Positions 1,990 to 64,000 of a DNA stretch of 64,000 nucleotides are shown one piece after another. Both the position numbers and the translations under genes were made by a program. The stretch's first letter is position 1. Every line of letters starts with the position of its first letter. Below the pieces are notes generated by a model that saw only the letters and a program-made list of their open reading frames with translations, made no database searches and was not told the DNA's origin. Location of the stretch: NCBI RefSeq assembly GCF_003350475.1, contig NZ_QQAV01000009.1, positions 1 through 64,000 of the forward strand, read 5' to 3'. This DNA is from Pseudacidovorax intermedius (GTDB taxonomy: Bacteria; Pseudomonadota; Gammaproteobacteria; Burkholderiales; Burkholderiaceae_C).

Positions 1990-2025
1990 TCGTCTTGCGC
2001 ACCGGACCGGCAAAGCAATTGCAGA

Positions 2026-2796
2026 TCACGCCCATTTGGGCTTCTTGTAATTGGCCGCGGCGCCAGGGTCCTTGCCCGCCTGCTGTTGTTGCTGCTGGTA
2101 CAGTTTTCTCAGCGATTCCTGCGTTTCTCCAAAAAGGGTGTCGTATTCGTCGGATTCTTCCAATTGAATCGAATCGCCGCTTCTGCGCAATTGGCCGCGC
2201 TGCTCCAGGTCGTTGATGACCTTGTTGACGACGCCGCGCGACAGGCCGGTGTACGACGCGATGAGCGCCTGTGAGATGCGCTTGCTGAAGGCCCGGGTGC
2301 CCTGCGGTGCGAGTTGCGTCAGTTCGTGCAAGACGCGTGCCACCATCTTCTCGGCCGACAGGGTGCTGCGGCGGCGCAGCTGGCGCCGGAGCATGTTGGC
2401 GCGTTCCAGGCTGATGTCCACCAAAGCCATCGAGATCGAGGGGTACTGTGTACAAAGCCCGCGTACGATGTCCATCGGCAGCACGTACACCGCCGAGGGC
2501 AGGGCAGCCACCAGGGTGAGTTCGGAGATGTTGGGACGGTCGGCCTGGGCAAGGGGGCCGCTCAGATAGATGTCGTTGACGCGCAGGAAGTTGGTGGTGA
2601 TCAGTTCCGCGCGGGCTGTGGCGTCGGTCGGCAGGCCCACCCGCAGCAGTCCCGAGGCAACGCAATACATCGAAAACGCAGGCTGGCCCGTAAGTAGAAC
2701 TACGTCATTTTTGCGGAAGTGGCGCAGTTCCACGAACCGCATCAGTTGCTGGCGCACCCCTTGGGGCACTTCGGAAAGCAAAGGATGAATCAACAT
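2026..2796 (-). CDS. Crp/Fnr family transcriptional regulator
   Basis: This 256-residue protein has an N-terminal cyclic-nucleotide-binding-like beta-roll (about residues 10-125) and a C-terminal winged helix-turn-helix (about 150-215), where SQALIASYTGLSRGVVNKVI is the recognition region. It lacks the N-terminal cysteine cluster of FNR, so it is not an iron-sulphur oxygen sensor. The ligand is not evident. Behind the HTH is an unusual low-complexity tail with six consecutive glutamines. A perfect 9-bp inverted repeat lies 59-96 bp upstream of the start codon and is a natural autoregulatory operator candidate. Confidence 0.85.
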   Translation of the reverse strand: MLIHPLLSEVPQGVRQQLMRFVELRHFRKNDVVLLTGQPAFSMYCVASGLLRVGLPTDATARAELITTNFLRVNDIYLSGPLAQADRPNISELTLVAALPSAVYVLPMDIVRGLCTQYPSISMALVDISLERANMLRRQLRRRSTLSAEKMVARVLHELTQLAPQGTRAFSKRISQALIASYTGLSRGVVNKVINDLEQRGQLRRSGDSIQLEESDEYDTLFGETQESLRKLYQQQQQQAGKDPGAAANYKKPKWA

Positions 2797-2854
2797 GCGC
2801 GTTCAAGCCGGCCGCAGCCGAAATAATGAGCAGCGCCAAATGTGACGATTCGCT

Positions 2855-2892
2855 GCATGCGTTGCAAGGAGGCTGAAAGTAGTAACGCATGC
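2855..2892. promoter_or_regulatory. inverted repeat upstream of Crp/Fnr-type regulator
   Basis: GCATGCGTT (2855-2863) and its exact reverse complement AACGCATGC (2884-2892) are separated by 20 nt. They lie 59 to 96 bp upstream of the regulator start at 2796. The half-site spacing is compatible with two dimer sites or a looped operator. An operator role is inferred from position only. Confidence 0.35.
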
Positions 2893-3740
2893 TAGAAGCT
2901 GGGATGTGGGCTTGTGCGCACGAAATCATCGGAATTGAAGACTTGCTGACACTTTAGGCTTAATAAAAGTGAAGGAAACGAGAAAAAATCTCTATCTCCG
3001 CAAGATTTCTACTGAATTCAGCAACGATTAGCGGTTTGGTTGTAAAGGGGGGGGCCGCCAGCCCCCACGAGGACGCCCATGGCTCCGGGAAGGGCCGATG
3101 GGCGTTGAGCTCTGTGAAGGGGGGCTCGGGCGAGCTGGGCGGTACGTCGAGGTCGCGCGGGTAGCCCGCGGGCGCAAGGCGCCGCCAGCAGGCACTCAGC
3201 CCTCGAGTCCCTGGCGTGAAGGACTGGCGCAGCGGCAGGCTGCCGGCGCCGATGCACCATGCGCGCGGTCATCGGCGATTTCCTCTGCGCCTTGGCGTCG
3301 GCGGCCAACGTAACGACGTAGCGTTCGCGGCCGAACAAGGCTCGTGAGTGAGCGGCGCCGATGCGCCATACCTGATGGATACGAGCGTGTCCCATGCGCT
3401 GGGCGGGCGTGTACGGCGCCAGCGCCAATGGGCCTTGTCGTGCGGGATCGTCGATCACCCCGGCAGCGTATTCGTCGAAAGCATCAGCGGGCTGGTGCAA
3501 CAGTCCGAATGTGCGGCGCCCCGTAGCGCCGGTGGTGGCCCTTCGCGCGGTGAATGAATTCCGATTTGTGTGAGTTGCGCGCTGCAGCGAATTCGAGCAA
3601 CTAAATCCTGAGTAATTTTCCACGGATTTGCATGATTCGGATGAAAGTTCCGGCCTGTGCGCTGGTTCAAGGGTAAAAATCGCGTGTCGATCAGCGACAA
3701 ATCAAGAATTTTCACTCTGAAGAATCATGAAGGGAGAAAT
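2893..3740. other. gene-poor stretch before the PAAR cassette
   Basis: About 850 bp hold no gene I can defend. From about 2930 to 3030 the sequence is AT-rich and looks like promoter or spacer. From about 3045 to 3550 it switches to high GC. The only long frame there (minus strand, 3623 to 3018, 201 codons) has a ragged composition, very rich in Arg, Ala and Pro, and matches no family I know. From about 3550 it becomes AT-rich again and leads into the cassette. This may be a degraded gene or element at the edge of a transferred segment. Confidence 0.4.
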
Positions 3741-4295
3741 ATGTATTACCGTGCATTGATTAGAGAGGGCGACACCTTGAAGCCGGGCGGCGGATTGGTT
3801 CAACCGAAACCGCAGCAATACAAGGTGGAGTATTTCGGAAAGCTAGCGTGCTTCGAGGGCGATCCCGTGTTTTGTAATGCGTGCAAAACTTGGGGTGTCA
3901 CCAAATGCGTTCCTCCCTATCGCCCCCAGACAGATGCCATTGGTCGGCAAGCGAATCTGGATGGTGATTTGTGCATGTGCAAATGCGCTGTGCCTCCGCG
4001 ACTCAAAGCAACGCTGGATACAATCCGAATGTGCTTCGAGCCCCATGAGATTGTGGGCGATGCTGTCTCATGGTTTATTGGCGAAGGGCATGATCCTGCA
4101 GTCATAGGAATGAATGCAGACCAGCGATTCGTTTTGGTTGATTCCATTACTGGTCAGGCACTGGCCGGCAGCGCGTACGTACTCGAATGCGATGGCATGA
4201 CCGTGCAAGGGGTGACAGACTTGCATGGAATGACTCAGCCCATTTACACAAGGGCCGGCGCTCGCCTCGTCACGGTATTTCTGCAGGTGGAATAA
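3741..4295 (+). CDS. PAAR domain-containing protein (T6SS spike tip)
   Basis: This 184-residue protein is predicted to cap the VgrG spike of a type VI secretion system and carry an effector. Residues about 20-90 form a cysteine-rich PAAR_CT-like domain: FEGDPVFCNACKTWG at about 38-52 and GDLCMCKCAVPP at about 75-86 give candidate metal ligands. Residues about 115-184 resemble the small beta domain (DSITGQALAGSAYVLECDG) often found behind PAAR in effectors. ATG 3741 is chosen because AGGGAGA precedes it; the upstream in-frame extension is basic and lacks a ribosome site. No vgrG or T6SS structural gene is in the window. Base composition is clearly more AT-rich than the neighbours. Confidence 0.85.
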   Translation: MYYRALIREGDTLKPGGGLVQPKPQQYKVEYFGKLACFEGDPVFCNACKTWGVTKCVPPYRPQTDAIGRQANLDGDLCMCKCAVPPRLKATLDTIRMCFEPHEIVGDAVSWFIGEGHDPAVIGMNADQRFVLVDSITGQALAGSAYVLECDGMTVQGVTDLHGMTQPIYTRAGARLVTVFLQVE

Positions 4296-4298
4296 ATC

Positions 4299-4880
4299 AT
4301 GACCAATAAGTCACCCGTCAAGGTCGGTACGGGGTACACCACACCATTGCACGACAAGACGCCCCAAACCGTCAAGGTGGACAGCCGACTTATCCGCTTG
4401 GCGGAGAACAGGGCGTATCTCAAGAACCCCAATGTACGAGCGTTTCTGGACATGATCGCTTGGGCAGAGGGCGGCGACTATCATGCCAAATTCGGCTATG
4501 GGTGGGCCCGTGGCGATTGGTCTTTCAAAGACGAGAGCACGCACCCAGGGCCGGGTTCAGATGGCAAGACCACAGCTGCAGGTCGCTACCAGATCACCAA
4601 AGCAAACTGGCAGGAAAACGGCGTGAAAAAGATGGGGCTCACCGACTTCAGCCCGGAAACACAAGACCTGATTGCTGTGGAAGGGCTGCGTAGCTCAAAG
4701 AGTCTGGATGCGGTGATTGATGGCGACATGGTTGTTGCACTCGGCAGCGCAGCGAGAACATGGAATTCCTTGCCTCAAGGGCCCGGCCTTCCGAATCGAG
4801 TAAAGGGTCAGCCGTATAAAAGATATGAAGACTTGGTTGCCCAGTTCAGAAAATTTGGGGGAAAGGTGACCAAAGAATGA
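4299..4880 (+). CDS. lambda endolysin-like lytic transglycosylase (GH104), probable T6SS effector
   Basis: The C-terminal two-thirds of this 193-residue protein aligns by eye with phage lambda endolysin R. FLDMIAWAEGGD (residues 49-60) carries the catalytic glutamate E57, AAGRYQITKANW follows, then GLTDFSPETQD. Such enzymes cleave peptidoglycan glycan strands. There is no signal peptide and no holin nearby, so delivery by the PAAR spike encoded 3 nt upstream is more likely than phage lysis. The first 40 residues are an extra leader, possibly for loading. The stop overlaps the next start (ATGA), which fits a toxin-immunity arrangement. Confidence 0.85.
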   Translation: MTNKSPVKVGTGYTTPLHDKTPQTVKVDSRLIRLAENRAYLKNPNVRAFLDMIAWAEGGDYHAKFGYGWARGDWSFKDESTHPGPGSDGKTTAAGRYQITKANWQENGVKKMGLTDFSPETQDLIAVEGLRSSKSLDAVIDGDMVVALGSAARTWNSLPQGPGLPNRVKGQPYKRYEDLVAQFRKFGGKVTKE

Positions 4881-54252: not shown

Positions 54253-55701
54253 ATGTCCGCATCCTCCAACGCGCCCACGCCCAACCCTCGGCGCGTCATC
54301 CCCATCGCCGCGGAGCCGCCTGCCGAAGAGGCCGTGTCGCTGTATGCCGCCAGCAAGAAGATCTACCCGCGTGCGGTGCAGGGCATGTTCGCGCGCTGGC
54401 GCTGGGCCATGGTGTTTGCGACGCAACTGGTGTTCTACGGCCTGCCGTGGCTCAGCTGGGGCGAGCGGCAGGCGGTGCTCTTCGACCTGGCATCGCGGCG
54501 CTTCTACCTGTTCGGGCTGGTGCTCTATCCGCAGGACCTGATCTACCTGTCGGGGCTGCTGGTCATCTCGGCCCTTTCGCTCTTCCTGTTCACGGCGGTG
54601 GCCGGCCGGCTGTGGTGCGGCTATGCCTGCCCGCAGACCGTCTATTCCGAGATCTTCATGTGGGTGGAGCAGAAGATCGAAGGCAGCCGCACGGCGCGCA
54701 TGCGGCTGGACGGCGAGCCGCTCTCCATGGAAAAGCTGGTCAAGAAGGCCTACAAGCACATCGTGTGGATCGCCATCGCGATGTGGACGGGCTTCACCTT
54801 CGTGGGCTACTTCACGCCGGTGCGCGAGCTGGGCCTGGCCTTCCTGCAGACGCAGATGGGCTCCTGGGAGGTGTTCTGGGTCTTCTTCTATGCCTTCGCC
54901 ACCTATGGCAATGCCGGCTTCATGCGCGAGCAGGTGTGCAAGTACATGTGCCCCTATGCGCGCTTCCAGAGCGCCATGTTCGACCGCGACACGCTGATCG
55001 TCACCTACGACCCGGGCCGCGGTGAGCCGCGGGCACCGCGGGGCCGCAGCGTGGATTACAAGGCCCGCGGCCTGGGCGAATGCATCGACTGCGACCTGTG
55101 CGTGCAGGTCTGCCCCACGGGCATCGACATCCGCCAGGGCCTGCAGTACGAATGCATCGGTTGCGGCCAGTGCGTGGATGCCTGCAACACCGTGATGGAG
55201 AAGATGAACTATCCGCGCGGCCTGATCCGCTACGACACGGTCAACGGCATGGCGGGCCACTGGAGCCGCGCGCAGCTGTGGCGCCGCGTGCTGCGGCCGC
55301 GGGTGCTCATCTATGCCTCGGTGCTCATGCTGCTGGTGGTGGGCATGCTGGTGAGCCTGGTGGCCCGCACGCCGCTGAAGGTGGACGTGGTGCGCGACCG
55401 GGCGTCGTTGGCCCGTATCGCCGAAGGCGGCCGGCTGGAGAACGTCTACCGCCTGCAGATCATGAATGCCACCGAGCGGCCGCAGAAGTACCGGCTCGCG
55501 GCGCAGGGGCTGGAGGGCATTGCCGTCTCGCCCGACACGCCGGTGGAGGTCGGTCCGGCCGAGGCCCGCTGGGTGGCCGTGCGGCTGAGCATTCCCTACG
55601 GCAGCGCCACCCCCGGTTCGCACAGCGTGCGCATCGAGGTGGGCGAGGAGGGCGGCGGCGCCCATGTGGCCGAGAAGGCTGCCTTCCTGGTGCCGCGCTG
55701 A
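54253..55701 (+). CDS. ccoG: cytochrome c oxidase accessory protein CcoG
   Basis: The 482-residue membrane iron-sulphur protein is a reductase implicated in copper handling for cbb3 assembly. It has about five transmembrane helices. RLWCGYACPQTVYSE and CKYMCPYARFQ precede two 4Fe-4S ferredoxin motifs, CIDCDLCVQVCPTGID and CIGCGQCVDACN. A C-terminal Ig-like periplasmic domain (about 385-482) follows the last helix. Length matches FixG/CcoG. Confidence 0.95.
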   Translation: MSASSNAPTPNPRRVIPIAAEPPAEEAVSLYAASKKIYPRAVQGMFARWRWAMVFATQLVFYGLPWLSWGERQAVLFDLASRRFYLFGLVLYPQDLIYLSGLLVISALSLFLFTAVAGRLWCGYACPQTVYSEIFMWVEQKIEGSRTARMRLDGEPLSMEKLVKKAYKHIVWIAIAMWTGFTFVGYFTPVRELGLAFLQTQMGSWEVFWVFFYAFATYGNAGFMREQVCKYMCPYARFQSAMFDRDTLIVTYDPGRGEPRAPRGRSVDYKARGLGECIDCDLCVQVCPTGIDIRQGLQYECIGCGQCVDACNTVMEKMNYPRGLIRYDTVNGMAGHWSRAQLWRRVLRPRVLIYASVLMLLVVGMLVSLVARTPLKVDVVRDRASLARIAEGGRLENVYRLQIMNATERPQKYRLAAQGLEGIAVSPDTPVEVGPAEARWVAVRLSIPYGSATPGSHSVRIEVGEEGGGAHVAEKAAFLVPR

Positions 55702-55745
55702 CTGCCCGACGCATCGACTTCGCATCCATCACGACGAGGATCCCC

Positions 55746-56042
55746 ATGACGAACCCGACGACGCTTGCTTCCGTACCCCTGGTCGAGCCTTCCAGCGGTC
55801 CCTGGTGGCGCCATCCGCTGATGTGGATGGTGGTGGGCGGTCCGGCGGTGGTGGTGGTGGCCGGCTTTGCCACGCTGTGGCTGGCGGTGCACAGCCCCGA
55901 TCCGGTGATCGAGGCGGACTATTACCGCCGCGGCATCGAGATCAACCGCACGCTGGAGGCCCAGCGCGCCCTGACGCCGGCGCAGCAGGCTCGCAACCAC
56001 GTGACAACGCCGACGCGGAACCTGCCTCCAGCGCAGCCTTGA
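55746..56042 (+). CDS. ccoH: FixH/CcoH family protein
   Basis: The 98-residue protein has one transmembrane helix (about 27-48) followed by HSPDPVIEADYYRRGIEIN, the hallmark of the FixH family (DYYxKG-like). It helps assemble the cbb3 oxidase. It is shorter than many FixH proteins (about 150), so the periplasmic beta domain is mostly missing. GACGAGGA precedes the ATG. Confidence 0.88.
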   Translation: MTNPTTLASVPLVEPSSGPWWRHPLMWMVVGGPAVVVVAGFATLWLAVHSPDPVIEADYYRRGIEINRTLEAQRALTPAQQARNHVTTPTRNLPPAQP

Positions 56043-56151
56043 CATGGCGCGTCGATCACCGGCACGACCGTCCGCGGCCAAGCATGCCCCGCTGCGGCGC
56101 CGCCCGCGGGGCCGCAGCCGCCCCGCAACCCAGAAGACGGAGACATCCCGC

Positions 56152-56418
56152 ATGCTGCGCCAGCCTCACTGCCTGATGGCCATCGCCTGGCCGGCGTTTC
56201 TGGCCGCCTGCCTGATGGAGTTCCTGGTCTTCGGCTTCGTCGATCCGGCCGAGTTGCGCTGGTTCGGCCATGTGCTCGAGATGCCGCGGCAGGCCATCTA
56301 CGCGCTGGGCTTCTTCGGCTTCTGGGTCGTGACCATGGTGTGCAGCGCGACGACGGCGCTGCTGATGCGCACGCCGGCCCAGGTCAATGCGCAGCCCGGG
56401 CCCGCCGGCCAGGCCTGA
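56152..56418 (+). CDS. small membrane protein after ccoH
   Basis: The 88-residue product has two transmembrane helices (about residues 8-27 and 46-67). I do not recognise the family. ATG 56152 follows GACGGAGACA; an in-frame ATG at 56044 would add an Arg-rich, unlikely leader. As the last gene before the terminator of the cco operon it may assist oxidase assembly, but that is inference from place only. Confidence 0.7.
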   Translation: MLRQPHCLMAIAWPAFLAACLMEFLVFGFVDPAELRWFGHVLEMPRQAIYALGFFGFWVVTMVCSATTALLMRTPAQVNAQPGPAGQA

Positions 56419-56432
56419 GCCCCCGAAACGAA

Positions 56433-56460
56433 GAAGGACGCCGAGGCGTCCTTCCTGTTT
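56433..56460. terminator. intrinsic terminator at the end of the cco operon
   Basis: GAAGGACGCC (56433-56442) pairs with GGCGTCCTTC (56445-56454), followed by CTGTTT. It lies 15 nt after the stop at 56418 and could also serve the convergent fnr gene. Confidence 0.75.
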
Positions 56461-56502
56461 ATGACGTGCCAGGTGGCCCTGGCGGGCCACCGGCCCCGGG
56501 GC

Positions 56503-57222
56503 TCAGGCGCAGACCGTGGGGTTGACCATCCGTCGCAGTGCTTCCGCGTCGAGGATGCGCACATGCCGCTGGTTGACCTCGACCACGCCGTCGTCGACGA
56601 ACTTGGAGAGGGTGCGGCTCACCGTCTCGAGCTTGAGGCCCAGGTAGCTGCCGATCTCCTCGCGAGTCATGCGCAGCACCAGCTCGGAGGCCGAGAAGCC
56701 GCGCGCATGCAGGCGCTGCACCAGGTTCAGCAGGAAGGCAGCCAGGCGCTCCTCGGCGCGCATGCTGCCCAGCAGCAGCATCACGCCATGCTCGCGCACG
56801 ATCTCGCGGCTCATGATCTGGTGCACATGGCGCTGCAGCGCCGACACCTCGCGCGACAGCTCCTCGATGCGGTCGAAGGGCATCACGCAGACCTCGGAAT
56901 CTTCCAGCGCCACGGCGTCGCAGGTATGGCGGTCGTTGACGATGCCGTCCAGGCCGATGATCTCGCCGGCCATCTGGAAGCCGGTGACCTGGTCGCGGCC
57001 GTCCTCGGAGGTGATGCGGGTCTTGAACACGCCGGTGCGGATGGCGTAGAGCGAGACGAACTGCTCGCCGTTATGGAACAGCAGTTCCTTGCGGCGCACC
57101 TTGCGGCGCGTGGCGACCAGCGAATCCAGTCGCTGCAGTTCCTCCGGCGACAGGCCCACGGGCATGCACAACTCGCGCAGGTTGCAGTTGGAACAAGCGA
57201 CTTTGATGGATTCTGGGGTCAT
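56503..57222 (-). CDS. fnr: FNR-type oxygen-responsive transcriptional regulator
   Basis: The 239-residue Crp-family regulator has the four [4Fe-4S] cysteines of FNR: C10, C13, C19 (ACSNCNLRELC) and C101 (RHTCDAVAL). The C-terminal HTH has the FNR recognition helix pattern ETVSRTLSKF, with Glu, Ser and Arg that read TTGAT. It should activate the nearby cco, usp and hemN promoters when oxygen is low. An FNR box 112 nt upstream suggests autoregulation. Confidence 0.95.
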   Translation of the reverse strand: MTPESIKVACSNCNLRELCMPVGLSPEELQRLDSLVATRRKVRRKELLFHNGEQFVSLYAIRTGVFKTRITSEDGRDQVTGFQMAGEIIGLDGIVNDRHTCDAVALEDSEVCVMPFDRIEELSREVSALQRHVHQIMSREIVREHGVMLLLGSMRAEERLAAFLLNLVQRLHARGFSASELVLRMTREEIGSYLGLKLETVSRTLSKFVDDGVVEVNQRHVRILDAEALRRMVNPTVCA

Positions 57223-57333
57223 GGTGTGTCCGACTCTGTAGGGTGGGGGGACGGCCCGACGCCTCGCTCGTGGGGTCTGTGGCGTCCGAAGGCTCCCTTG
57301 TCAGTCATTCTCCGACAGCGATCAACTTTCTGT

Positions 57334-57347
57334 TTGACGTGGATCAA
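57334..57347. promoter_or_regulatory. FNR box between fnr and hemN
   Basis: TTGAC-GTGG-ATCAA deviates by one base from the consensus. It is centred about 42 nt upstream of a plausible hemN transcription start (CATTAG -10-like at 57372-57377) and lies 112 nt from the fnr start. Confidence 0.85.
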
Positions 57348-57415
57348 GCGCCGATCATGGCTTCGAACGCACATTAGAGGCAACAACCCTGGCGCTGCTG
57401 TGCCCTCCTGCTGCG

Positions 57416-58837
57416 ATGAGTTCTCTGCCCATCCCGTCCCCCTTTGCGACCGAGCCCGCGGTGCTTTCGACGTCGCTGCTGCGCCGTTTCGACGTGCCGG
57501 GCCCGCGCTACACCTCCTATCCGACCGCCGACCGCTTCGTGGAGGCCTTCGGTCCCGCGGAGTATGCCCAGGCCCTGGTCCAGCGCCGCGAGGCGGCCGG
57601 CGCGCGCGCGCTGCCGCTGTCGCTGTACGTGCACATCCCTTTCTGCGAATCGCTGTGCTACTACTGCGCCTGCAACAAGATCATCACGCGCCACCACGAG
57701 CGGGCGGCCGAATACCTGCAGGACCTGCTGGGCGAGCTGCGGTTGCAGGTGGCCGAACTGGGCCGGGGTGAGCCGGTGAGCCAGTTGCACCTGGGGGGCG
57801 GCACGCCCACCTTCTTCAGCGACGAGGAGCTCTCGACCCTGATGACGGCGCTGCGCGAGTCCTTCGACTTCCTGCCCGGCGCCGAATGCTCCATCGAGGT
57901 CGACCCGCGCACGGTCGATGAGGCCCGCCTCGCGCACCTGGCGGCGCTGGGCTTCAACCGCCTCAGCTTCGGCATCCAGGATTTCGATGCGCAGGTGCAG
58001 AAGGCGGTGCACCGCATCCAGCCCGCGGCCGAGGTCTTCGCGCTGATGGCGGCGGCAAGGCGGCTGGGTTTCGCCTCGATCAATGCCGACCTGATCTACG
58101 GTCTGCCGCGGCAGAACAGCACGTCCTTCGAGCGCACGCTGGCGCAGGTGGTGGAGCTGCGGCCCGACCGCATCGCCCTGTACGCCTACGCCCATCTGCC
58201 CGAGCGCTTCAAGCCGCAGCGTCGCATCCTGTCGCAGGAGTTGCCCGACGGCCCCACCAAGATCGACATGCTCTCGCGCGCCATCGGCGTGTTTGGCGAG
58301 GCGGGCTACGTCTACATCGGCATGGATCACTTCGCGGTGCCGGAGGACGCCCTGGCCGTGGCCAAGCGCCAGGGCCGGCTGCACCGCAACTTCCAGGGCT
58401 ACAGCACCCAGCCCGACTGCGACATCATCGGCCTGGGCGTCTCGGCCATCGGCCGTGTGGGCGCCAGCTACAGCCAGAACGCCAAGACGCTGGAGGACTA
58501 CCGCGACCGGCTGCAGCAGGGCCAACTGCCCGTGGTGCGCGGCCTGGCCCTGGGCCGCGACGACGTGGTGCGACGCGCGGTCATCATGGCCATCATGTGC
58601 CAGGGCCGCATCGACTTCGAGGCCATGGGCGCCGCCAATCTGGTGGACTTCCGCCAGTACTTCGCGGCCGAGCTGCAGGCGTTGCAGCCCCTGGCGGAGC
58701 AGGGGCTGGTACGCCTGGATGCGCGCGAACTCGAGGTCACGCCGGCCGGCTGGTACGTGGTGCGCGCCATCGCCATGGTGTTCGACCGCTACCTGCAGGC
58801 CGACCGGGCGCGCACCCGCTTCTCACGCATCATCTGA
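57416..58837 (+). CDS. hemN: oxygen-independent coproporphyrinogen III oxidase
   Basis: The 473-residue radical SAM enzyme makes protoporphyrinogen without oxygen. The cluster motif is HIPFCESLCYYCACNK (CX3CX2CXC, near residue 73). The GGGTPTF motif for SAM binding follows. The N-terminal PGPRYTSYPTADRF and the total length identify true HemN rather than HemW. Placement next to fnr with an FNR box supports induction under low oxygen, where haem for cbb3 is needed. Confidence 0.96.
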   Translation: MSSLPIPSPFATEPAVLSTSLLRRFDVPGPRYTSYPTADRFVEAFGPAEYAQALVQRREAAGARALPLSLYVHIPFCESLCYYCACNKIITRHHERAAEYLQDLLGELRLQVAELGRGEPVSQLHLGGGTPTFFSDEELSTLMTALRESFDFLPGAECSIEVDPRTVDEARLAHLAALGFNRLSFGIQDFDAQVQKAVHRIQPAAEVFALMAAARRLGFASINADLIYGLPRQNSTSFERTLAQVVELRPDRIALYAYAHLPERFKPQRRILSQELPDGPTKIDMLSRAIGVFGEAGYVYIGMDHFAVPEDALAVAKRQGRLHRNFQGYSTQPDCDIIGLGVSAIGRVGASYSQNAKTLEDYRDRLQQGQLPVVRGLALGRDDVVRRAVIMAIMCQGRIDFEAMGAANLVDFRQYFAAELQALQPLAEQGLVRLDARELEVTPAGWYVVRAIAMVFDRYLQADRARTRFSRII

Positions 58838-58970
58838 GCTGCGCCCAGGCCTTTGCCCATGCGTCCCCAAGCCTGCCGACCCGTGCCGAGGGCGCCGTCC
58901 ATTGCGGGCAGGGCACTCACGTCCCCGGACCGACGGCAGCGGCCAGACGTCCGGCTGACCTAGAGATTTC

Positions 58971-59723
58971 ATGGCCTGGATCGAAGGACTCGCGCTGTCG
59001 GCGACGCTGCTTGGCGTGGCCTCTGCGCCGCACTGCGCCATGATGTGCGGCCCGGCCTGCACCTCATTGATGAGCGCTTGCACACGGCGGCCCATGGCGC
59101 AAGCCGGCGATAAGTCCCAGGTGCAGATCTTCCCGCGCGGCAGTGGCGAGCCTGCCTCAATCACCCCGTCGATGCAGCTTGCCTTTCATGGGGGCCGCCT
59201 GTTGAGCTATGCGGCAACCGGTGCATTGGTGGCGTCGGCCACCGGCATGCTTGCGACGCTCAGTGCCACCTTGACGGCACTCAAGCCCCTGTGGTTGCTC
59301 ATGCATGCAGTCGTGCTGAGTTGGGGAATCGTCCTGGCCGCCGTGGGTCGGCAGCCTCTCTGGGCGGCGCAGCTGGGAAGGGGCGCCATGCAACGTGCGG
59401 CCACTTGTGCGGCGTCCCCGCGGGGGCTGCTGGCGGTGGGCTCGGTGTGGGCGTTGATGCCTTGCGGCATGTTGTATTCGGCGTTGATGTTGGCGGCGCT
59501 GGCCGGCAGTCCCTTCGAAGGGGCAACGTTGATGGTTCTGTTCGGCGCCGGGGGCGCTGCAGGCCTTTGGCTGGCACCGAGGTTCTGGTCGTACCTGCGC
59601 GGCGGACAGGGGACCTGGCGGGCAGCAGCGGGCACGCGGGTGGCTGGGCTGCTGCTTGCCACGGCCGCAGGCTACGCCCTTTGGATGGATCTGCGAGAGC
59701 AGGTGGCGCGCTGGTGCGCTTGA
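58971..59723 (+). CDS. sulfite exporter TauE/SafE-like membrane protein
   Basis: The 250-residue protein has about six transmembrane helices. The first contains ATLLGVASAPHCAMMCGPAC, the conserved His/Cys segment of the DsbD_2/UreH-like group. A second conserved loop, WALMPCGMLYSAL, has another Cys. In many proteobacteria this type lies beside cco genes and is thought to help copper or thiol handling in oxidase maturation. That role is inferred from position here. Confidence 0.85.
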   Translation: MAWIEGLALSATLLGVASAPHCAMMCGPACTSLMSACTRRPMAQAGDKSQVQIFPRGSGEPASITPSMQLAFHGGRLLSYAATGALVASATGMLATLSATLTALKPLWLLMHAVVLSWGIVLAAVGRQPLWAAQLGRGAMQRAATCAASPRGLLAVGSVWALMPCGMLYSALMLAALAGSPFEGATLMVLFGAGGAAGLWLAPRFWSYLRGGQGTWRAAAGTRVAGLLLATAAGYALWMDLREQVARWCA

Positions 59724-60218
59724 CTGCGGAAGGCGTCGTCCGCGATCTCTTGCCTGTGGACTTCCAGAGCTTCGAGCCCAAGACGTTGGCAGGCCCTCTT
59801 TGAATCCGGTGCCGAGTCCGGCCGCCGGCGCGTGAAGCGCAGCACCGTCTGAGTTGTTGCCGCGTCTGCGACGACGTCGATTTCGATTTGCAGATCGCAA
59901 GCCCGGGCCACGGGGGCGCATTCGACAGCGGAATGGCCGTCAATGCTGGACCTTTCTGATGCTGCGGTGGCCCGCTCGTGAACGCGTGTTGAGCTTTTGA
60001 AAAACTTTTCTTTTAAATTATTCACCTAATTTTTAATTAGGTGGTGAATCTCGATCAAGGCAGGGCTGGCGTCCTAAAAAATACCTGGTAAGTGTGTGAA
60101 TGTCCTCATAAAGTTCTAATTCATGCTGTCATCGTCAATCTTTCGCGAGCATGCCCGTCATGATTTAACTCACGCTTCTGGTCATTGATTCATGGCTAGG
60201 CGAATCCAAGGAGGGGCC
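59724..60218. other. AT-rich intergenic region with a perfect hairpin
   Basis: Between the SafE-like gene and the barrel locus the sequence turns AT-rich (about 59990-60200), unlike the rest of the window. A perfect hairpin, CACCTAATT-TTT-AATTAGGTG, lies at 60023-60043, and A/T tracts flank it. This probably holds the promoter of the downstream operon and perhaps a binding site. A minus-strand frame from 60025 to 59672 has poor coding character. Confidence 0.5.
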
Positions 60219-60344
60219 TTGAAAAGGTCGGAGCGCTTGCCGGCAAATCGAACTGATTCATTGCACGTGGTTCCAAGCCGCAAAGATGGGCTTGGCTCTG
60301 CGCCGCGATCGCTGTCCGCCCTTGTGGCGGGCCGGCACAGGTGA
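60219..60344 (+). CDS. possible leader peptide upstream of the barrel gene
   Basis: A 41-codon frame starts at TTG 60219, just 2 nt after AAGGAGGGG (60208-60216), the strongest ribosome-binding sequence in the area. It ends in a GTGA overlap with the next start (60341-60344). The product is basic and shows no motif. An in-frame ATG at 60192 would extend it. It may be a coupling leader, or the true N-terminal part of the barrel gene if the sequence contains a frameshift. Confidence 0.3.
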   Translation: MKRSERLPANRTDSLHVVPSRKDGLGSAPRSLSALVAGRHR

Positions 60345-62569
60345 GGTGCAGCGGTGCGGCCCGGATTGCAATTGGCCGTCGTTGGATGTTGGCCGTCCTT
60401 GGTGGCCTTTGTGCTTGGCCGTGCGGCGCGCAGGACGCTGGCGGATCGGTACGAGTGGAGCCAATGAGTCGCTTCGAGGCAGAACAGGCGCGTTTGCGAG
60501 CGCAGTTGGAGCGGGCGCCGCAGGCCTATGTGGACCGCGTCATGGACGAATCCGTCCTGGATTCAGCAGACACCGCGACAGCACCCGTCGGAGGCGAGCT
60601 CGCAGGCGTGCGGTCCTGGGTGGTGGAGTCGCGCGCGGGTTGGGCAAATTCAGACGACAGCGGCGCATCGCTGCATGCCTTCGAAGCCGGTATCCATGCC
60701 GAGTACCGGCGCGAGATGCTCAATTTCGGAGACTTGAGCTTTCAGTTCGACGGTCGCGGCGCCAACGGTGATTCGCAGTCCGGACTCTTCGGGCTGGGAT
60801 CGCTTGGACAGTCCACCCATGCCAGTGGCGACCGTTTGACCCTGCGCATGACCGGTGTGCCGCTGACCTCCCGACGTTTCGCCGACATCGCGCTCGGCGA
60901 TTTCTATGCCGAGCGCACGGACGGTCTTCAGCGGTATGAACGGCTGGCCTTTGGAAGCAGCCCGTTGCGTGGCGCATCGGTGCGCCTGTTCGACGCAGAC
61001 GGCGAACTGCGGCTCGGGGGCGGCTTGCGCGGTTGGCTGGTGGGAAGCCCCTATCCGGGCTTCGAGCGTAGCCAGGGCAGCAAGAGCTGGATCGCGATGA
61101 CCAGGCGAGTGGACGGCGATGGTTTTGCGGCTTTTCAGATCGAGCAGGCGAACAACGTACCGGCCTTCTACTACGACGGGTGGAGAGGGCAGGGCAGCGG
61201 ATCGAAAGACGTACGCAGCTTCGCGGCCTCGGTCGGGCGCAACAACTGGCCCCTGCGCGATGGCGAACCCCGTGGCCGGCTCACGCTGATTGCAAGCAGA
61301 GTGCAATCGAGCACTCCCGATGTCGCCCAGGGAAGCTCCGTCGGTCTGTTCGCCGAAGGGGCTGTGCGTCTGGGCTCCTACAGGCACACCGCGAGCCTGT
61401 TCGTTGCGCGCCCCAATCTTCATTTTGGTGACACTTCGCTGGCGACCGGGACCAGCGGAGGCCACTGGCGCGTCGATTACACGAGCGCGCGGCTCAGCTG
61501 GGGCGGCGGGGTCGACCTGGACCGCGGTCCGCAGGAGGCATACCAGAGCGGTACAGAACGCTCGCGGCGAGCGTTTTCCCTCAACGGGCAATATCTTCTG
61601 GACCGCGACAGCGCCATCGGGGGCAGCTTCTCGGCTGCCGTCCTGCATCAGCAGGGTGGTACGAACTTCGGCAGCAACTGGAACGCCGAAGCCTCGACTC
61701 CGAGCAGCACGCAGAAGAGTTTTCTCGCGTCCTGGTACGGCCAAAGCCGATTTTTCGGACTGCCGCGCAGCCGTCTCACGCTCACCGTGCAACGCAATCG
61801 TTCGGTTGCGGCCGACAGTGACACCGCAACCGGTCAGGAGCTGGTCTGGGAGCAGGACTGGTTCGATGCCCGCGCGTCCAACGGAGGCAGAGAGTTCACG
61901 ACCCTCATCGGCTATGCGCGAGACGAAAGCGGCGGCGTCGTCCGCCATTACCCCACGGCCGGCGCACAGTTTCGCGGCAGGCTGGCCGGCACGGTCGAAG
62001 TGCAGGGCAATCTTCGCTACACGTCGCGAACCGGTGGGCTCTACACCAGCAGGGGCCTGTCTGGGAGCCTCTCGCTGGAGCAGAGCCTTGCTGCGGGCTG
62101 GCGAGTAGGCGCGACCCTGAGCCTCAATCAGGCGCGAACTGCTCTGGTTCGAACCCTGGCGGATACGGCCCAGGTCTATCGAAGCAACGAAAAGACGCTC
62201 CAGCTCTACCTTCGATGGCAAGGGCAGAGTGGCCAGCCATTTGCACCGATCGGCGACCGGGCGGCGGGTGCAGGCAGTGGCGACATCGAAGGGCAGGTGT
62301 TCCTGGATGCGAACCGTGACGGCATACAGCAGCCGGGTGAGGCCCTCGCAGCAGGTGTCGAAGTCGTGCTCGACGGGCGGTTCCGAACCGTCACTGATCG
62401 CAACGGTCGCTTCGAATTCCGCTTGGTCGCAGTGGGTCGGCACCGGTTGAGCGTGACGCCCGAGAGCATCCCGCTTCCCTGGGTGGATTCTGGGTACGGC
62501 GCAGGGGTCGAAGTCCCCCTGCGCGGTACGGGCTCGGTCACGCTTGCGCTTGTGCGAGGGACGCCATGA
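60341..62569 (+). CDS. predicted outer-membrane barrel protein with SdrD_B-like C-terminal domain (usher-like)
   Basis: The 742-residue exported protein has a signal peptide (cleavage after LCAWPCGAQ, about residue 31) and a short helical segment (FEAEQARLRAQLERAPQAYV). About 550 residues of alternating polar/hydrophobic strands typical of an outer-membrane beta barrel follow, including RRFADIALGDFYAER. Residues about 655-742 form a beta-sandwich with QVFLDANRDGIQQPGE and TDRNGRFEFR, like SdrD_B or carboxypeptidase-regulatory domains. Size and layout recall fimbrial ushers, but the usual usher signatures are not obvious. GTG 60341 is used; ATG 60386 would still leave a signal peptide. It heads an operon with two secreted paralogues. 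Confidence 0.75.
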   Translation: MRCSGAARIAIGRRWMLAVLGGLCAWPCGAQDAGGSVRVEPMSRFEAEQARLRAQLERAPQAYVDRVMDESVLDSADTATAPVGGELAGVRSWVVESRAGWANSDDSGASLHAFEAGIHAEYRREMLNFGDLSFQFDGRGANGDSQSGLFGLGSLGQSTHASGDRLTLRMTGVPLTSRRFADIALGDFYAERTDGLQRYERLAFGSSPLRGASVRLFDADGELRLGGGLRGWLVGSPYPGFERSQGSKSWIAMTRRVDGDGFAAFQIEQANNVPAFYYDGWRGQGSGSKDVRSFAASVGRNNWPLRDGEPRGRLTLIASRVQSSTPDVAQGSSVGLFAEGAVRLGSYRHTASLFVARPNLHFGDTSLATGTSGGHWRVDYTSARLSWGGGVDLDRGPQEAYQSGTERSRRAFSLNGQYLLDRDSAIGGSFSAAVLHQQGGTNFGSNWNAEASTPSSTQKSFLASWYGQSRFFGLPRSRLTLTVQRNRSVAADSDTATGQELVWEQDWFDARASNGGREFTTLIGYARDESGGVVRHYPTAGAQFRGRLAGTVEVQGNLRYTSRTGGLYTSRGLSGSLSLEQSLAAGWRVGATLSLNQARTALVRTLADTAQVYRSNEKTLQLYLRWQGQSGQPFAPIGDRAAGAGSGDIEGQVFLDANRDGIQQPGEALAAGVEVVLDGRFRTVTDRNGRFEFRLVAVGRHRLSVTPESIPLPWVDSGYGAGVEVPLRGTGSVTLALVRGTP

Positions 62570-62693
62570 GTCCTCCGGCTGCGGCAGAGATGACAGCGAG
62601 CGCTATACGACGCGGTGAGGACGCGACTCGCGAATTCCGCCGCACTTCCAAAAAAGAGTTTTTCAGCAGCCCGTACTTCAGAGAGGAACCACG

Positions 62694-63311
62694 ATGAGAA
62701 AACAGCACTTCTTCCAAAACCGTGTCGCAGCCGTTGCTTTGGCAGTTGGCGCACTCGCCAGCACCCCGGCGCTGGCCGAGTCCACCTATGGTTATGCGTC
62801 GTCCGGCACCGGTACCGTCACTGCAAACGCACGGGTCAACCTGTCTGTCACCGTGCCCAAACTGCTGCTGCTGCGCGTGGGTAGCGCGAACACGGTAGTG
62901 GACACGCTGTCCTGGACGTCGGGCTACAGCATTCCTGCGGCATCCACCGTGCCCACGACGGGCAACAACACGGCTGTGAACTGGGATGCCAATGCCCCGA
63001 CCGCGACGGCCGGCACGCAGCCAGGCGCACTCGCCGTGACCGCATGGACGAACGCAGGCAGTGGAACCATCAATTGCGCGGTTGCCGCCTGGAGCCCGGC
63101 CAGCGGTGGACCCCTCAACAGCAACTTCACGGTGAACTCCTCTGGTACCTTGCCTCACCCGGGTGCCAACCTGGGTGCCTGCCAGTCGACGACCTTCCCG
63201 AGCAATGCATTGGCCGCGAGCACTTGGACCTATGTGCTTGGCGGCACTCCGGCCAGCTGGTCCGCAGGCTCCTACACGGCCACCGTCACCTACACAGCCA
63301 CGGGAGTGTGA
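62694..63311 (+). CDS. secreted two-cysteine protein A (possible fibre subunit)
   Basis: The 205-residue protein has a signal peptide ending ASTPALA. The mature sequence starts ESTYGYASSGTG and is Ser/Thr/Ala/Gly-rich and beta-strand-like. Two cysteines (TINCAVAAWS and LGACQSTTF) could form a disulphide. The C-terminus GSYTATVTYTATGV resembles the last strand of pilin-like or spore-coat-U-like Ig folds. No known family is certain. AGAGAGGAA precedes the ATG. Its stop overlaps the start of the paralogue by 1 nt. Confidence 0.8.
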   Translation: MRKQHFFQNRVAAVALAVGALASTPALAESTYGYASSGTGTVTANARVNLSVTVPKLLLLRVGSANTVVDTLSWTSGYSIPAASTVPTTGNNTAVNWDANAPTATAGTQPGALAVTAWTNAGSGTINCAVAAWSPASGGPLNSNFTVNSSGTLPHPGANLGACQSTTFPSNALAASTWTYVLGGTPASWSAGSYTATVTYTATGV

Positions 63312-63958
63312 TGACGCGGATCGACATTCAACTCCGCGCGCGTTCCAGCCAACTCTGGGCTAGAGGAGCGCTGGCGCTCGCGGTGGGGCTTCTGTCCGTC
63401 GTGTGTTTTGGCACACCGGCCCGGGCCGAGTCCACCTATGGCTACGCGTCCTCGGGCTCTGGCACCCTGACCGCCACCGGAAGGGTCAACCTGTCGGTGA
63501 CGGTCCCCAAGCTCATCCTTTTGCGGGTGGGGGCGGCCAACGCCACGCAGTCCAGCCTGACATGGGCGCCCACGTTTTCCATTCAGAACGGGCCGACCAG
63601 TCCGAACAATGGCAACAACACGGCGATCAACTGGAACGCTGCTGCACCGACCCTGGCGGTCGGTTCGCAGCCTTCCGCGCTGACAGTGGCTGCCTGGACC
63701 AACGCCGGCGTGGGCACACTCAGCTGCGCGGTCGGTGCATGGTCGGCAGCGGGAGGGCCGCCCAACTCCAGCTTCGCCGTATCCGGCTCGGGAACGCTCG
63801 CGCATCCCGGCGGCGATCTTGGTGCGTGTTCGTCATCCACCATCGCCAGCAACGTGCTCGCCAGCGGCAGCTGGACCTATACCCTCAACGGTACGCCGAC
63901 GAGCTGGACGGCAGGTGCGTACAGCGCGACGGTGACATACACGGCCTCCGGGGTATGA
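63311..63958 (+). CDS. secreted two-cysteine protein B, paralogue of A
   Basis: The 215-residue protein has a signal peptide ending GTPARA. Its mature part closely parallels protein A: ESTYGYASSGSGTLTA, RVNLSVTVPKLILLRVG, cysteines in TLSCAVGAWS and LGACSSSTI, and the end GAYSATVTYTASGV. It is clearly a tandem duplicate. Start overlaps the stop of A (TGATG). Its stop overlaps a further ATG (ATGA at 63955-63958), so translation seems coupled through the operon. Confidence 0.82.
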   Translation: MTRIDIQLRARSSQLWARGALALAVGLLSVVCFGTPARAESTYGYASSGSGTLTATGRVNLSVTVPKLILLRVGAANATQSSLTWAPTFSIQNGPTSPNNGNNTAINWNAAAPTLAVGSQPSALTVAAWTNAGVGTLSCAVGAWSAAGGPPNSSFAVSGSGTLAHPGGDLGACSSSTIASNVLASGSWTYTLNGTPTSWTAGAYSATVTYTASGV

Positions 63959-64000
63959 CCGCATTCGGGCGGTGCAGATCGTCTGACCGATGGCGTATGC
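63955..64000 (+). CDS. start of a further operon gene, cut by the window end
   Basis: An ATG overlapping the stop of protein B (ATGA) opens a frame that stays open to the end of the window (15 codons). The first residues, MTAFGRCRSSDRWRM, are basic as in the n-region of a signal peptide. With chaperone-usher systems in mind it could be a chaperone or a third subunit, but nothing in 15 residues decides that. Confidence 0.5.
   Translation, partial: MTAFGRCRSSDRWRM

Follow-up and report, generated by a model that had tools for sequence, protein, structure and literature searches.

Chaperone-usher pili are among the best understood surface machines of bacteria. According to PMC8410936, described ushers comprise five domains, namely a 24-stranded β-barrel, a plug, an N-terminal domain and two C-terminal domains (CTD1 and CTD2), and as a chaperone-subunit complex is recruited by the N-terminal domain, the N-terminal tail of PapC takes on a helical motif. 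For classical systems, PMC9452303 assigns most of the chaperone contact to the N-tail and has the N-terminal domain hand the complexes over to the C-terminal domains. Archaic chaperones are described in PMC4654587 as having no analog of the classical Arg/Lys pair and as relying on a domain 1 Arg in strand F instead. Here we analyze a window of Pseudacidovorax intermedius DNA (the whole stretch of 64,000 nucleotides, contig C9 1-64000) at whose right end begins a seven-gene run that we interpret as a divergent chaperone-usher-type assembly operon, with a probability of roughly 0.83. This assignment was computed from the operon anatomy, profile homology of the chaperone, a predicted barrel with a C-terminal domain and the ranks of ushers in its Foldseek search, a weakly pilin-like subunit fold, co-occurrence and gene order; donor-strand exchange, fiber formation and passage through the pore are what we infer beyond these.

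All seven genes lie on the + strand and encode, in order, a usher-like outer-membrane barrel protein (60341..62569, 742 aa, GTG start), the twin pilin-like subunits 1 (62694..63311, 205 aa) and 2 (63311..63958, 215 aa), pilin-like subunit 3 (63990..64604, 204 aa), an exported protein, here called S (64635-65168, 177 aa), a two-domain periplasmic chaperone (65165-66025, 286 aa) and pilin-like subunit 4 (66022-66642); exported N-termini were judged by eye from sequence. The window end cuts into this run, with only 63990..64000 of the subunit 3 gene inside it, and the genes for S, the chaperone and subunit 4 lie past the window, the chaperone starting 1.2 kb beyond its edge. The contig continues to 266,771 in a genome of 5.98 Mb, and its coordinates are those of the window; the operon genes past the twins occupy positions 1990-4642 of segment L001 (C9 62001-80000, contig position being L001 position + 62000). 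Coupling is tight, with the start of subunit 2 overlapping the stop of subunit 1, the start of the chaperone overlapping the stop of S and the start of subunit 4 overlapping the stop of the chaperone, and an opposite-strand open reading frame (ORF) of 271 aa follows. The original prediction, made from the window alone, had described a barrel, twin exported proteins and a fourth coupled gene, all of which are present as ORFs where it placed them; the fourth proves to encode a third subunit-type protein, not a chaperone. It had also suggested searching rightward for a chaperone or an adhesin, of which the former is found as the sixth gene, while none of the seven operon genes was recognized as encoding a separate adhesin.

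Profile comparison indicates that the 286-aa protein is a divergent periplasmic pilus chaperone. When 18 of its relatives (A1) were combined in a profile and aligned to a profile of 17 PapD_N-type frames, using hhalign without secondary structure, as in all profile comparisons below, the match reached 98.0% (E 2e-13) over 204 columns across both domains; the reference frames derive from 16 loci of the same order, because L112 contributed two equally long frames, of which one is probably spurious. In plain searches with the protein, Pfam gave nothing better than E 0.02, and PDB sequences gave no match at all. The database contains 639 relatives at E up to 0.001, and among the 120 listed some are named fimbrial chaperone or PapD by their source; the closest named relatives are from Pseudacidovorax (76-81% identity). 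As in the classical pathway (FimC/FimD, PapD/PapC), this PapD-related two-domain protein, homologous to the PF00345 family over both domains, possesses an alternating hydrophobic strand that aligns to G1, the assignment to G1 being by profile alignment. The five alternating positions of this strand are Ile, Leu or Val in 60, 60, 60, 58 and 60 of 60 loci, and two Cys residues are invariant in 60/60.

The carboxylate anchor differs from the classical one. All 60 loci have an Arg at the position where the aligned reference set has a conserved Arg (14/17 there), while the classical G1 Lys is absent: the column aligned to the Lys of reference L107 holds Ala in 42, Ile in 15, Thr in 2 and Ser in 1 of the 60 loci, giving Arg 60/60 and Lys 0/60 for the classical pair. 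In the 17 reference frames themselves the same column is Lys in 4, Pro in 12 and His in 1. R131, invariant in 18/18 relatives, is a candidate counterpart of the strand-F Arg reported for archaic chaperones. As a separate observation, 10 of the 18 chaperone relatives gave a weak match to WxLIP_PGBD (best E 0.017), and EfmWxLIP1 appeared in the PDB search at E 0.69, which suggests a faint sequence similarity to a WxL-interacting surface protein.

The AlphaFold model of the barrel protein (pLDDT 84.7) contains 26 long strands between residues 91 and 630 (E91-106 to E616-630, counted from the DSSP line of the model) and one C-terminal domain. Its N-terminus consists of a signal-type leader and a short helix (residues 44-58, pLDDT about 75), followed by a Y-x-D motif whose Y63 and D65 are nearly invariant among relatives. 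A Foldseek search with the model returned FimD or PapC chains at ranks 1 to 14, with a best E of 1.9e-13 over 739 columns and low TM-scores. Chain B of 6r2q, which we take to be MtrB of the Mtr porin-cytochrome complex, was placed after these 14 usher chains at 7% identity and, unlike in an Mtr-type system, no cytochrome gene is found among the seven genes of the operon. The original prediction had compared the locus to fimbrial usher loci and named a barrel of 24 strands as a feature that would favor an usher system; the comparison is supported by the PapD-related chaperone in the operon, by FimD/PapC as the first matches of the barrel and, weakly, by pilins as the first matches of the twin subunit fold, whereas the strand number of the model differs.

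In contrast to classical ushers, the barrel model has 26 predicted strands instead of 24 and contains no plug (the longest strand-free stretch inside the barrel is ∼20 residues), no usher N-terminal domain (∼60 residues, mostly of low confidence, separate a plausible signal peptide from strand 1) and no second C-terminal domain. The C-terminal β domain that is present (residues 646-739) is SdrD_B/CarboxypepD_reg-like. The SdrD_B-type domain claimed for this end by the original prediction is a real match, seen in all 41 members of the barrel set (A3), the window's included, at E up to 1, although the window's own barrel scores just under the Pfam cut-off (27.9 versus 29.7 bits). The same domain aligns to PF00577 ushers with a profile probability of 90% over 74 columns, as against at most 0.1% for five column shuffles of the barrel profile and 0.4% for the reversed profile; of the 20 PF00577 loci retrieved, 14 went into the usher profile, which thereby mixes several usher types. 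The barrel part proper showed no sequence homology to ushers in profile-profile comparison, and none of the 41 barrels matched PF00577 or PF15976 at E up to 1. Against CooC-type ushers, represented by about 600 C-terminal residues (limited by the stored flanks), the whole protein reached 3.0% and the C-terminal domain 0.1%. When the barrel alignment was used to search a large protein set, with scoring limited to the 8000 candidates that had most words in common with it, 16 proteins came back, of which 15 were already known and one covered 8% of the query, with no bridge to ushers. Because the model shows neither the 24 strands nor the plug nor the N-terminal domain of ushers, and the usher models of Pfam do not match, the barrel protein should not be filed in the known usher family, as far as a predicted structure can tell.

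Two features of the barrel genes stand apart from this comparison. The database gene call (P0001) begins at an internal ATG and gives a protein of 701 aa without the signal-type N-terminus of the 742-aa GTG frame, which may hide export of the barrel. Barrels of some relatives carry an N-terminal extension of 200-300 residues before Y-x-D (L062 3699-6743, L081 9764-12568 and L014 1489-4083), in sequence presumably LysM-like; no LysM-like Pfam match was obtained in the 41 scanned barrels, a set that includes L081, with L062 and L014 outside it.

The twin subunits are near-duplicates, as originally described, being 60% identical and sharing the motifs ESTYGYASSG, RVNLSVTVPKL and ATVTYTA.GV, with two cysteines in the mature part of each; subunit 2 has a third Cys in its signal-type leader. 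Subunit 1 has an N-terminal extension ahead of an Ig-like domain, and the subunits share a C-terminal strand of the type AGxYxGxVTFTA. In a Foldseek search with the model of subunit 1, ranks 1-13 were all chaperone-usher subunits of classical, alternative and archaic systems (32 of 50 rows listed), with weak scores (best E 0.02, none below E 0.001); the model is thus weakly suggestive of a pilin-like fold. A CsuC-CsuA/B chain ranked tenth, a resemblance to the archaic (sigma) CsuC/CsuD pathway that goes with the chaperone-usher layout of the locus. We take SCPU pilins to correspond to PF05229 of the archaic pathway. Unlike in that pathway, neither an SCPU match nor a PF00577 usher was found in this genome, and the subunit profile, built from 107 of 211 matches (length 150-250, redundancy removed), reached only 10.6% against SCPU over 18 columns, the subunit-3 type reaching 11.7% over 61 columns.

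Protein S sets the locus further apart from the classical pathway as an extra conserved component. It was found in 64/65 loci (see below), usually directly before the chaperone, and its mature start is conserved as RLDDSxSPR, although it is less conserved in sequence than the chaperone. No member of its family (A5, 20 members) matched a Pfam family better than E 0.017, no match below E 1 was obtained against PDB sequences, and the S profile reached at most 1.8% against ushers, chaperones, SCPU, pilins and the barrel. Its role could be that of a detached recruitment factor, of a gate or of a minor subunit.

A pattern scan of a species-genome collection, keyed on two conserved motifs of the chaperone alignment and thus undercounting distant relatives, retrieved 65 loci. 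These are mostly from Variovorax, Comamonas, Delftia, Xenophilus, Ramlibacter, Hydrogenophaga and related Burkholderiales, with further loci in Thiothrix, Thiolinea, Lysobacter and unclassified Gammaproteobacteria. At least one subunit is encoded in all 65 and a barrel in 60; among the five loci without a barrel, three have one on another contig, in L047 it is masked there, and L035 has none. The same gene order was found in other Burkholderiales, where the original prediction had suggested looking for it: the commonest arrangement, barrel-subunit-subunit-S-chaperone-subunit, accounts for 32/65 loci, and in a second architecture subunit-subunit-S-chaperone precedes a barrel gene that either lies in tandem or points back (this tally misses the barrel of L071, which is present in the locus but scored below the domain threshold). 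Each cassette encodes 1 to 4 subunits, cassettes cut by contig ends being counted. Chance does not explain the composition of the cassette, which is found again, complete or truncated at a contig end, in the 65 loci, with L035 reduced to chaperone and subunit.

Among 200 family genomes, the chaperone (cut-off E 1e-10) and the barrel (cut-off E 1e-20) were detected in one and the same set of 14, which includes the window's own; in 13 of these the two share a contig and lie no more than a few kilobases apart, and in G685 they are on two contigs. Their identities correlate with r 0.90 over 60 loci, compared with at most 0.15 in 30 shuffles, a correlation to which shared species history contributes. 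The cassette is patchy, since the chaperone is present in 3/398 phylum genomes (own included) and the barrel in 9/14 genomes of the same genus; no barrel or chaperone match was found on plasmids. For comparison, PF00577 and PF00345 occur together in the same 10/60 genomes of the order. The genome of the window has no match to PF00577, PF00345, PF15976 (CooC_C) or PF05229, and by these four Pfam models contains no known chaperone-usher locus; the chaperone profile finds this one locus only.

Several individual loci deserve mention. L035 (3686-5249), from a Burkholderiales metagenome-assembled genome (MAG), encodes the chaperone and one subunit without barrel or S at the locus, and no barrel is found elsewhere in the assembly; it could be an orphan pair, a decayed cassette or the product of an incomplete MAG. 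In Comamonas sp. JUb58, one complete cassette directly follows another in tandem (L025 4673-17188). Hydrogenophaga borbori has one cassette of each architecture side by side, and in a Burkholderiaceae MAG both architectures adjoin, the first barrel falling, if present, past the contig end (L067 3924-15256 and L068 3358-12287). The cassette of L082 lies on a contig labeled as a Halobacteria archaeon MAG and resembles the gammaproteobacterial form, which makes misbinning likely.

By analogy with the described pathways, the cassette probably builds hair-like surface fibers in the chaperone-usher manner. Once exported to the periplasm, the Ig-like subunits would be captured by the chaperone, which would lend them its hydrophobic G1 strand (donor-strand complementation) and pass them on to the barrel, where the N-terminal extension of the next subunit would replace the chaperone strand, the growing fiber leaving through the barrel. 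The short N-terminal helix and Y-x-D motif of the barrel may recruit the chaperone, as the usher N-tail does, and the C-terminal domain may hold the chaperone-capped base of the fiber. Gating of the pore could be achieved by loops or by S instead of a plug, and S may supply a missing usher function. On present evidence the cassette works like a chaperone-usher pathway, yet its barrel fails to qualify as a known usher. We tentatively consider that it could represent a fourth class beside the classical, alternative and archaic pathways, with a wider, plug-free, 26-stranded usher that lacks the N-terminal domain and with S and the N-terminal helix of the barrel performing recruitment or gating; we regard this as possible and well short of probable.

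The alternative that survives best is that the locus belongs to an ordinary known class, as an archaic or alternative locus that evolves fast and whose usher has done no more than drift and shed domains. This overlaps with assignment to a divergent chaperone-usher-type operon, so that the two are not mutually exclusive. Common descent is indicated by the chaperone homology, the similarity of the C-terminal domain to that of ushers and the Foldseek ranks, and a chaperone without the classical Lys and with an invariant F1-strand Arg resembles what is reported for non-classical chaperones. Such drift would have to account for the fact that PF00577 and CooC-type ushers recognize each other at 99.5% whereas the barrel of the window is recognized by neither, for three absent usher domains and a different strand number in the model, and for an extra protein retained in nearly every locus. 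The alternative pathway (alpha, class 5; CfaA/CfaB/CfaC, EcpB) differs in addition in that its CooC_C marker is absent from the genome. We consider membership of a known class unlikely.

Less likely still is chaperone-assisted secretion without a fiber, in which single Ig-like proteins would remain surface-bound as adhesins or be released from the cell unpolymerized. No tip adhesin or two-domain subunit was recognized in the operon, the few subunits per cassette are similar to one another, and with weak fold matches the fiber is known here as a prediction. On the other hand, a polymer would require just such a set of several paralogous subunits, extended at the N-terminus and alike in their C-terminal strand, and the first-ranked folds are those of polymerizing pilins; we regard secretion alone as improbable. 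That the barrel is an unrelated porin lying by chance next to unrelated exported proteins is scarcely credible: VIA-align gives many porins and TonB receptors at a similar Z for the model, the barrel part lacks sequence homology to ushers and one locus in 65 keeps chaperone and subunit without it, but chaperone and barrel share their genomes and diverge in parallel, cassette order is largely kept over the 65 loci and start-stop overlaps tie together the window's own operon, and if co-inheritance is accepted, a fortuitous association is refuted already.

Upstream of the operon, a perfect 9-nt inverted repeat (CACCTAATT/AATTAGGTG, window 60023-60043) lies in an AT-rich patch ∼300 bases before the barrel start and is a possible regulator site. 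The left neighbors (window 54253-59723) presumably form a cbb3-oxidase assembly and FNR/HemN cluster, in which the gene at 58971-59723 has a Pfam match to DsbD_2. Apart from this match and that of the barrel to SdrD_B/CarboxypepD_reg, plain Pfam, NCBIfam and PDB sequence searches gave only weak or chance matches. No account of this system was recognized by title or start of abstract in the open-licence literature of PubMed Central, and its absence from print is thus unproved.

The cassette could be an overlooked extra branch of the chaperone-usher family, with a barrel too divergent for standard searches. Surveys based on usher Pfam models would then miss fimbrial loci in Variovorax, Comamonas and their relatives, Thiothrix and Lysobacter. 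A related assembly system that appears to operate without three of the usher domains and has an extra conserved component would show which parts of the usher are essential.

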